A stretch of 64,000 bases of DNA from Chamaelirium japonicum (taxonomy: Eukaryota > Streptophyta > Magnoliopsida > Liliales > Melanthiaceae), in contig OX393549.1 of assembly GCA_947650365.1 (NCBI GenBank), forward strand, positions 37,591,098 through 37,655,097. Direction: 5' to 3'. The position numbers and the translations under genes are program-made. Shown here one piece after another: positions 199-28,500 of this stretch. The notes below the pieces were generated by a model. The model was not told the origin of the DNA, searched no databases, and saw only the letters and a list, made by a program, of their open reading frames with translations. How positions within the stretch are numbered: position 1 is the stretch's first letter; the number at the start of each line of letters is the position of its first letter.

Positions 199-963
199 AT
201 ACGGGGTATGAGCTGACAGCCCATTTGAGCAAATGGGCTGTCAGCCGGTAGCCGTCCGATCGGATCAATCAAACCGTCCATTTTTTTTTTTTTTAAAAGA
301 ACAGCTGTAACAGCTGTACTGAGTTTTTTTTTGTTTTACAGCTCTCTCTCTCTCTCCTTCGCGCTCTCTCCCTCTCCGTCTCTCTCGCGAGCGGCAGCGG
401 CAGCCGGAGGGGACCGGGCCGGAGGGGCGCGGCAGCCGGAGGGGACCGGGCCGGAGGCGGGGCGCGGCAGCGGCAGCCGGAGGGTCGTCGGGAGACCGGA
501 GGCGTAGGGGGCTGCTGGTCGGAGGGGATCCGGTGGCGCAGGGGGCTGCTGGTCGGAGGGGATCCGGAGGCGCAGGTGGCCAGATCCGGTGGCGCAGGGG
601 GCTGCTGGTCGGAGGGGATCCGGAGGCGCAGGTGGCCGGATCCGGAGGCGCAGGGGGCTGCCGTCGGGAGACCGGAGGGGGCTGCCGGTGGCCGGATCCG
701 GAGGGGGCTGCCGTCGGGGGAGCGGGGGGCTGCCGTCGGGGGCGTAGGGCCGGTCCGGCTGCCGCTGCCGCTCGCGAGAGAGACGGAGAGGGAGAGAGCG
801 CGAAGGAGAGAGAGAGAGAGCTGTAAAACAAAAAAAAAATCAGTACAGCTGTTACAGCTGTTCTTTTAAAAAAAAAAAAAATGGACGGTTTGATTGATCC
901 GATCGGACGGCTACCGGCTGACAGCCCATTTGCTCAAATGGGCTGTCAGCTCATACCCCGTAT
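199..963. mobile_element. Foldback element with 0.2-kb inverted ends and GC-rich core, set in microsatellites
   Basis: The left arm (199 to about 412) and right arm (about 755 to 963) are near-perfect inverted repeats, starting GGGGTATGAGCTGACAGCCC and ending with its complement. Each arm holds a shorter palindrome (16-bp stems around 212-245 and its mirror) and an A/T run. The middle (about 475-735) is GC-rich and made of imperfect tandem units of about 40 bp containing GGAGGGGATCCGG and GGGGGCTGC. Outside lie (TA)n(GA)n on the left and (CT)n(TA)n on the right. There is no transposase, so it is non-autonomous. The open frames across the core are by-products of its composition. Confidence 0.75.
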
Positions 964-1080
964 TCTCTCTCTCTCTCTCTCTCTCTCTCTATATATATAT
1001 ATATATATATATATATATATATATATATATATATATATATATATATATATATATATATATATATATATATATATATATAT
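964..1080. repeat. (CT)n then (TA)n microsatellite
   Basis: The tract has about 13 CT units followed by about 45 TA units. Frames reading SLSLSL or YIYIYI across it are not genes. Confidence 0.97.
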
Positions 1081-25500: not shown

Positions 25501-28500
25501 TTAATCCTCTACGCGAATGCGCACTAACCCACTCTGAAGTTTCCCCTCTTCTATTTTCAGTTTTTGTTTTGTTTTCTAATTAATCCTCATCTTTTCTCCA
25601 TATATGCTTCATGTGTACGAATTTTGATTATTTTATAAATATGGTTCAAGGTTCTATACTGTTGCTTTTTTTATTTATTGATTTTTTTTCTCTTTATGAT
25701 TTTGATTGTTTAAGTCTAGAAAATATGATTGTCATGCATCTTGTATGTGTTTCGGCGGCCATTGCGTGGCGTTGGAGGCGGTGGAGTGAGGCCCAAGACC
25801 TCTCTCTCTCTCTCTCTCTCTCTCTCTCTCTCTCTCTCTCTCTCTCTCTCTCTCTCATGCGTGTGAGAGGAGTTAGTCCATCGAGGTCCGAGGGTAGGGA
25901 GCAAATGCAGTGCCCATGGATGCTGGAGGCTGGCAACGAAGAAGTAATCGACCGTTGTCGTGTTGAATATGAACGCATAATATTTTTATTGTCTAGACCA
26001 AAACTTTATTATATATTTTGGTGCAGCATAATATTTTTGTTATCCAAACAAATTAATTTATGCCGCTATAGGTGGTCACTTTCTAGGTACCGAAGATGGT
26101 TGTTCGCATGTCGACAGGCACAAGCATTACTATATTTGATTGTATCAGGGAATTAAGATATTGCAAGATCGACAAGATGCTCATATTCAGTGAAGGTGGT
26201 CACATTCGTCAGCCGCGATCATTTTCTGTAGGGCGGTATCTGCCAAATGTTGTTGCCCCTGTTAAAATAGGTTGCCACAGATGAATGTTAGTTGTCGTGG
26301 CTGGCTGCTAGAGGTGACAAAAGAGAGTTGCTGAAGGCAGTAATTACTGACTGTCAGCTGACTGATGGTGGCAGTGAGCCCCCGCCGAATATGGGCGCCC
26401 TCCTAATACGAGAGAGAGAGAGAGAGAGAGAGAGAGAGAGACCAAAGTAATGTGGGCGCCCCCCAAATATGAACCCAGTACATGAAATAAAACTCATGTT
26501 GGTTATTACCGTGCATGAATGACCAAGGTAAACTTTAATCTGATCATTGCATCTGGATTTTATGCACGGCGACTCATGTGAGGACTTCTAGATTTTGCCT
26601 CCAAATTGTAGCATTTATGTAGTGCCTCTAATTTGTAACACTACTGCATTATTGGTAATATATTTCTTATCACACAAAGTTTAAGGCATTGGAATTGAAG
26701 GCCCACTAAGCAAAAAACATAACAAATAAAGGATGTCGGCGTCCAGCCAAATATGGATGCCTTCACAGAATATGGGCTCCTGGCCTAATGTGGGCGTCTT
26801 CACAGAATGTTGTCGTCCTCAAAATATAATCACATCCCTCAAAATATTATCATCAGTTTTAAAATATTATTGCCACCTTTAAAATATTGCCTCTTCCCTC
26901 AAAATTTTATCACGCCCTCAAAATATTTTTGTCGCCTTTGAAATCTTTTTCGTGCCGACAGGCACGGGCATTACTAGTATATATATATATATATATATAT
27001 ATATATATATATATATATATATATATATATATATATATATATATATATATATATATATATATATATATATAGGGGTATGCTATAATACGGCATGCGGTAA
27101 GTCCGGCAACGCATGGTAGCCATATGATGCACCGCTGCGTGCATCGCATGCACGCAACGCGTACATCAGACGGCTGTGGTGTAGTGCCGCACGTACCGCA
27201 TGCCGCATTATAGCATGCCCCTATATATATATATATATATATATATATATATATATATATATATATATATATAGATGTAGAAGATGCAAGGTGTTTAAGG
27301 TCTTAACAAAGTTTTCTTGAAAAATAAGTTTGCCAAAATATGAATACTCGATGGACAAACTACTATCCTTCTGGGAAACGTAAAATTTTTAATAGTTAAT
27401 CAATCTTAGTCTTATTAACAAGTGTGCTCATATCCATCTTCATTAAGGAAACGATGGTAGTTTGGTGATTTGGAAACAAAGTTAGCTGATACATTTAGGT
27501 GCATCTATGCATCTTCCACTAAAAATTGATAAAGTAAGTTGGTCATTTTAAAACAAAGTTAGCTTCTTGGGTTTTTTCTCTTGAGAGGCCCAGTATAGTT
27601 TTATCACATTTCAACTTTTTATGATCCTTTGTAAACCCAGGAGTACAGATGCATTCATCTTGTTTCCATGGAAAATCCAAGCCTTTATTTAAACATATAA
27701 CTAGCCTGGGTTACATTAAAGTGAAATACAGCTATATTTACCATAAAATCTATAAGAAAAGAGAAGTTGCCAAATCAATTAATTGCAACTTTACTTACAT
27801 GAAGTTTAACAAAGGAGAGATTAGTCAATGGCCTTGAAGTCAAACCTTTGATAGGGAAATTTCAAGCATTTCTTCACATATAGCTGCCAAGCTCTTGGTT
27901 TCCTTTGGAAGCTTTCTCCCAACCTTCTGATCTTTTATAAGATGATATATGCTGGTAATGTCAAGAAAGGGTTCGACCTGTCTCAAACAAAGAGACATTC
28001 TTCGATAAACCATTGTATCAGCTTAAATAATAAAAGAAACTTAAAGATAAAAATTTTATTCAAAGAACATTGTCTTTGGAATGAAAAAGTTCTAATAATC
28101 TCTTGATTGAAGCAAAGCATAAAAGATATGAAGCCTCCCAGCCACAGGTAAGCTAATTGATAGTATTATGATATGAACAAAAGTAACAAGCAATCATTAG
28201 GTGCATACGTGTAAATAGGATAACACTATGTACAGACACATAAAAAAAAGTATGAAATAATATTTGATACAAGGCACTACTACACTACATCTCTCCAATA
28301 CCACCCCTCAAAACTCATGAGTCACAATGGTGGCTGATGCACAACGGGTAAGGGGCCCAAGGAGGTCCTGTCAAAAGCATGAGTTGTTGCTCTAGGTTAA
28401 AAATTTAGGCCTAGAAAGGTGCAGATTTTCACAACAGCAGAAAGGTATTTTAGTCTTTTCATCATGTTCAGTTTTTTTGATCGGATTGAAACTAGGAGGG

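Follow-up and report, generated by a model that had tools for sequence, protein, structure and literature searches.

The window (the whole stretch of DNA analysed here, 64,000 nucleotides) contains small foldback elements of several families joined by dinucleotide microsatellites. In loci sampled from the same genome, such repeat families have near-universal microsatellite flanks, stand in arrays, and differ by family in the parity that can be read from the phase of the flanking (TA)n. The elements are probably foldback MITEs, small non-autonomous DNA transposons, which transposases pasted into TA-rich simple repeats already there, with a hidden duplication, a parity specific to each family, and growing tracts that gave rise to arrays. 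The type of transposase, the exact duplication length and the lengthening of tracts after insertion are what we infer from these patterns. Each insertion would make a short target-site duplication that disappears from view in (TA)n, although the register of the repeat would still show its parity. Families of the TGCG type (A, B, X and relatives) would leave an even duplication in the phase TA-element-TA, presumably of 10 bp (or 8 or 2 bp), and GGATC-type families an odd one, presumably of 9 bp. The transposases may be Mutator-like (MULE) enzymes supplied in trans, an assignment that is firmest for the odd group. Insertion would leave TA tracts on both sides, which would lengthen and serve as the next targets, until unrelated hairpins stand in arrays.

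A masked inverted-repeat scan of the window yielded 21 hairpin entries, some overlapping, six of which (199-963, 10305-10454, 21949-22289, 22329-22843, ~22932-23163 and 27072-27221) have a dinucleotide run of at least 5 units no more than 20 bp from each end; 20,000 random placements gave 0.19 such hairpins on average and never more than 3. With a run at no less than one end as the criterion, the same six hairpins are found versus a null mean of 1.67 and maximum of 8, so only the two-sided enrichment is striking. The remaining 15 (e.g. 24520, 36214, 50814, 56638, 58529 and 61569) lack two-sided runs; thus, hairpins in general are not microsatellite-bound, and the association is one of particular families. 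These 15 are what speaks for a meaningless overlap in a genome rich in both microsatellites and hairpins, but six of 21 against 0.19 expected rules chance out, related copies elsewhere repeat the pattern, and we assign this already refuted explanation practically no probability. The foldback at 36214-36468, by contrast, lies outside microsatellites, with ends GGGTAAATTACAC...GTAATTACCC and a visible 9-bp duplication (TAGATAATA), a length described as usual for Mutator-like elements in the available parts of two reports (PMC4486113, PMC5907723).

The elements and their flanks are as follows (L numbers denote loci fetched from elsewhere in the genome).

1-168: right end of an upstream module, abutting (TA)7; homologous to part of L058:1722-2404
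169-198: (TA)7 then (GA)n, left of element A
199-963: family A foldback with arms of ~210 bp, a nested hairpin in each arm and a GC-rich tandem core; loci L001-L028
964-1081: (TC)n then (TA)46, right of element A
8210-8230: (TA)10 tract, end of dispersed repeat R1
~8231-8466: family X foldback, left part (GGGTAGTGATACA...), right end lost; 76% identical to L022:295-509
8467-9918: GC-rich DNA of 1.45 kb between two truncated foldbacks
~9919-10214: family Y foldback, right part, left end lost, including the 9927-10106 hairpin; 92% identical to L016:282-578
10215-10304: (TA)45
10305-10454: family B foldback of 150 bp, which folds as a nearly perfect hairpin
10455-10510: (TA)28
21949-22289: foldback of ~340 bp with family B-type ends, between (CA)n and (CT)n
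22310-22328: (TA)9
22329-22843: family C foldback with ends GGATTTTTAACAAA / GGTTTTTTTACAAA
22844-22931: (TA)44
~22932-23163: family D foldback, ends uncertain by a few bases
23164-23241: (TA)39, edge of dispersed repeat R2
26978-27071: (TA)47, abutting a Helitron-like 3' end
27072-27221: foldback of 150 bp with family B-type ends
27222-27273: (TA)26

A preliminary description of this DNA had counted eight dinucleotide-flanked hairpins with differing arms. The flanks hold for the six two-sided hairpins, and the count of eight does not. One of the others, given as a hairpin at 8232-8515, does have (TA)n, on its left only, and is a truncated family X element rather than a whole hairpin element (homologous module L022:295-597). 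The other, given as 9927-10106 with a neighbour at 10216, likewise has (TA)n at its right end only and is a single truncated family Y element (homologue, the 396-bp module L016:183-578). That the arms differ is only partly right, and the independence of the families was overstated, three of the six (10305, 21949 and 27072) having the terminal sequence TGCT..AATGCGGCATGCGG in common with single differences.

The interval 8231-10214, which lies as a whole between (TA)10 and (TA)45, consists of two truncated foldbacks of different families around unrelated GC-rich DNA of 1.45 kb, in which the open reading frames look low-complexity. A single intact element is ruled out, its two ends belonging to different families; perhaps it is a composite element or captured host DNA. 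At the left edge of the window, the upstream module (L001:923-1469, equivalent to window positions -378 to 168) is 87-92% identical to L058:1886-2404, and its end GGGAAGCTTGACTTTG resembles GGGGAGCATGACTTTG.

Searches of the genome (1.52 Gb in 3253 contigs) with element A (200-960) and element B (10305-10454) identified dispersed repeats that end in terminal inverted repeats and whose length leaves no room for a transposase gene. At least 24 matches span the whole of element A (68-100% identity, itself included), and 28 family A loci (L001-L028, not all full-length) were taken. Element B has at least 41 matches over 149-150 of its 150 bp at 99-100% identity (itself included; 40 were scored out of 1676 first-look candidates), and so close a match between copies spread over many contigs suggests a recent burst of amplification. 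The 58 resulting loci are no random sample: they were selected for their similarity to A and B, which biases them towards arrays. A microsatellite abuts the family B copy on both sides in all 30 of the fetched loci (one being the window's own and two overlapping). When ends were counted by motif in 55 loci and the window, again in this biased sample, a dinucleotide run of at least 3 units in the 24 bp outside was missing from none of 108 family B ends and 2 of 78 family A ends. Among 14 other end motifs, ten had no exceptions, three had one each (1/18, 1/5 and 1/14), and one had 10 of 22, which are read as matches inside an element because the sequence upstream is common to them. Relatives of two elements (A and B) thus lie in (TA)n elsewhere, as published families do, and the earlier proposal of insertion into microsatellites is supported. 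Comparison with 56 loci, drawn as they were by similarity to A and B, gave no relative of family C and only short matches to family D, in its central TA-rich stretch, which rules out a single family for all the window hairpins. In the sampled loci, non-autonomous repeat families lie dispersed through the genome and are linked to one another by (TA)n.

The sequences between successive microsatellites in 56 loci and the window comprise 295 modules, 216 of them in 10 clusters and 79 single. Family A has an internal (CT)n, so its arms and cores appear in the clusters as separate pieces, and plain flanking DNA accounts for some of the single modules. In two arrays of the window (8231-10510 and 21949-23163), one unrelated hairpin succeeds another with (TA)n between them, and a third such array crosses the left edge of the window (1-168). 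Seven of 130 modules have the ends of two families, and one locus (L018:704-1480) has an A element, (TA)5, and then an A copy without its outer end, for which truncation, recombination and nested insertion are the alternatives. About a dozen end types occur here, and the ends of many families are alike, GGGnnnnG.T....TG (by eye only).

Whether the microsatellite is the target or the product can be approached through sites shared by different families. Repeat R1 (window 7876-8197) matches L048:1154-1484 at 81% identity over 338 bp, and its TA-rich end is occupied by X in the window and by B in L048. Similarly, R2, ~80 bp that are common to three loci directly beside (TA)n before they diverge (window 23235-23330, L006:3359 and L032:1677), adjoins D in the window, A in L006 and B in L032; R2 itself might be the end of another microsatellite-dwelling element. 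The (TA)n to the left of 27072 abuts a Helitron-like 3' end (26930-26977), a hairpin followed by CTAG, which we take to be the Helitron signature; a copy near position 451 of L049 also abuts (TA)n, and one near position 497 of L017 has no TA there.

The preliminary description had offered, as its other suggestion, that the elements carry or seed the repeats, i.e. that TA (and GA) is added at insertion or that a microsatellite grew from the ends in repeat-poor sequence. Several observations are in keeping with this. Ten TA runs of at least 18 bp occur in the window, seven touching a listed hairpin; two more (990-1081 and 8210-8229) adjoin family A, via (TC)n, and family X, so that by count and reading nine of ten adjoin an element and one (50227-50256) does not. 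TA runs with no recognised element end have a median of 27 bp (n = 34), versus 78 bp with one recognised end (n = 105) and 75 bp with two (n = 106; free versus element-touching, Mann-Whitney 9e-8), which fits lengthening after insertion, a preference for long tracts, or unrecognised ends. Directly outside 39 of 55 exact family A ends there is (GA)3 or more, and in maize, according to the available part of one report, TAFTA empty sites of only 6-8 bp have expanded to up to (TA)50 on either side (PMC5907723). Against these stand the occupation of the same R1 end by two families and of the R2 side by three, and empty sites described in the parts of the literature at hand as TA tracts, in 20 cases in rice (PMC5907723) and with nine TA units on average in Medicago (PMC4486113). 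Furthermore, symmetric TA on both ends cannot yield the odd parity of all 18 GGATC-type elements described below, which excludes TA carried in this way as a general explanation. What is left of the suggestion is at most the (GA)n at A ends and later lengthening of (TA)n, and we consider it quite improbable that the repeats came with the elements.

The parity itself is read as follows. A duplication made within (TA)n is invisible, so the phase of the repeat on the two sides of an element gives its parity: inside a perfect (TA)n tract, the two bases next to the element differ after an even duplication (A before and T after, or the reverse) and are the same after an odd one. Of 171 modules between TA runs (55 loci and the window), the 130 that run from G to C were scored and 41 were dropped; 22932, its ends being uncertain, was left unscored. 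TGCG-type families (A, B, X and relatives) comprise 82 even and 5 odd elements (n = 87), versus 0 even and 18 odd in GGATC-type families (n = 18; Fisher 4e-16, the grouping being post hoc). Three families are mixed (n = 13; 4 even, 9 odd):

family GGGGAGCC: 2 even, 3 odd
family GATGCTGCC: 1 even, 3 odd
family TTCCTATG: 1 even, 3 odd

The seven elements whose two ends come from different families (5 even, 2 odd) stayed outside these groups, as did five that were assigned to no family (2 even, 3 odd). A permutation free of the grouping found 105 of 114 elements concordant in the ten families with at least 4 members, which none of 20,000 permutations reached (maximum 96), and BLAST clustering of the same modules gave 49 of 53 even for B, 21 of 23 even for A, and 21 of 27 odd for the large GGATC cluster. 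Examples were also read by eye, and 10305, 27072 and 22329 in the window are even. The even families have the phase TA-element-TA in 79 cases and AT-element-AT in 3.

Odd parity fits a duplication of 9 bp, and even parity one of 8 or 10 bp, or also 2 bp. No visible target-site duplication was found in any copy of the (TA)n families examined in the fetched loci and the window, so these families can be placed among the MULEs only tentatively, by their ends, their shape and analogy. The even group is ambiguous, because its strict phase (79 versus 3) is also expected from a fixed 2-bp TA duplication of the Tc1/mariner type. Either two MULE transposases with staggers of 10 and 9 bp, or a TA-duplicating transposase together with a MULE, would explain the split.

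The even families might accordingly be Tc1/mariner or Stowaway-type MITEs, only the odd ones being MULEs, with both piling up in (TA)n. The phase is what such elements predict, although a 2-bp TA phase misfits the odd families. Tc1/mariner elements insert at any TA, yet no family B end among the 108 counted in the biased sample lies without a dinucleotide run; Stowaway ends, CTCCCTCC, are unlike the ends found here. The G-run ends and foldback shape instead match MuTAnT of Medicago, and duplications of 10 bp and of 9/10 bp are recorded, in the parts of the reports available, for the counterparts in guayule and pineapple. On balance, the Tc1/mariner explanation of the even families is unlikely.

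A further alternative, proposed speculatively for guayule SaTar elements (PMC5907723, available part), is that circular intermediates, with microsatellite filler, integrate by homologous recombination instead of by cut-and-paste. Unlike flanks are in its favor: the element at 21949-22289 is not in one unbroken tract, since it has (CA)n on the left and (CT)n then (TA)n on the right, and family A sits in (TA)n(GA)n. A fixed stagger, however, would be expected to give each family its own phase parity, which recombination in arbitrary register would not, and recombination seems very unlikely to account for these elements. Returning to insertion by transposases, we lean slightly towards at least two of them with different staggers (one even and phase-locked, the other odd), independently specialised on (TA)n and building joint arrays in which the phase is a fossil record of the machinery.

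The window looks plant-derived: its minus strand has Pfam matches to a 3'-5' exonuclease domain (6745-6936), to Mut7-C (4320-4523, above the curated cut-off, and 4632-4793, below it), and to a Copia-type reverse transcriptase (RVT_2, 15988-16581). The stretch 4320-6936 likely represents exons of a mut-7-type gene whose introns hold the hairpin arrays and retrotransposons. Open reading frames suggest that a further upstream exon is perhaps located near 36.6-37.1 kb on the same strand, where no Pfam match was found; if that reading is right, most of the noted hairpins are intronic. Two nearly identical direct repeats of ~1 kb (11101-12080 and 13922-14895, 99.5% over 848 bp) with 1.8 kb between them have the look of long terminal repeats bounding a small retrotransposon. 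Elsewhere in the window, a higher-order array (54960-55500) has units like CAACTAAAAGGAATTCTAAA spaced by (CT)n of varying length, and (CT)38 at 51679-51754 faces (GA)40 at 51848-51927 at a distance of 93 bp, making a 76-bp perfect inverted repeat.

If it holds, phase parity would be a cheap genome-wide test of the duplication length class of elements in (TA)n, by which mobilising systems could be told apart without an autonomous element and the microsatellite recognised as target, not only product. If the reading with two machineries is true, the phase could be read in every genome whose microsatellite-dwelling elements conceal their duplications. For annotation, the result suggests that a long (TA)n tract in such a genome will often be a transposon seam.

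By shape, flanks and arrays, the elements are new members of the SaTar / Ac-mMITE / MuTAnT / Micron kind. The kind itself is already known, and the parity by family is new here: the parts of the literature searched contain no phase-parity argument that we found, which is no proof of its absence from print. What follows is limited to the available parts of the reports cited. For guayule and rice, pineapple, and Medicago, these describe 9- or 10-bp duplications in a minority of copies outside microsatellites, in several families, and MULE transposases for some (PMC5907723, PMC8449440, PMC4486113).

SaTar elements of guayule and rice comprise many small families with terminal inverted repeats (TIRs), flanked by (TA)n or other microsatellites and forming modular arrays, and are called non-autonomous MULEs (PMC5907723). 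The likeness is by description. A minority of SaTar copies have 10-bp duplications (PMC5907723), whereas none were seen in the copies here. In guayule, a different mechanism was suggested because some flanks do not fit a simple duplication (PMC5907723); the parity found here argues against the step other than plain cut-and-paste that the SaTar authors favour.

Ac-mMITE of pineapple has (TA)n flanks, (GA)n/(TC)n at its ends, clusters, recent amplification and TIR ends common to families, as do the elements here. Duplications of 9/10 bp are also recorded for it, and the same GA pattern is explained there by slippage at GA-ending elements (PMC8449440). It differs in having two families, versus about a dozen end types here, and family-wise phase parity is undescribed in the available part of that report. 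MuTAnT of Medicago is alike in its (TA)n flanks, its distal run of 0 to 4 G residues and its foldback hairpins, 90% of which measure 200-300 bp. It has an autonomous mudrA-like element and 9-bp duplications, of which none were seen in the copies here; a precise reading of the duplication was impeded for most MuTAnT copies (PMC4486113). Micron of rice, since reclassified as rSaTar2, a non-autonomous MULE (PMC5907723), and TAFT/TAFTA of maize also target microsatellites (PMC5907723, PMC8449440, PMC4486113, PMC12550479); by description, the parallel with Micron drawn in the preliminary description is supported, since published microsatellite-dwelling families appear to behave alike.
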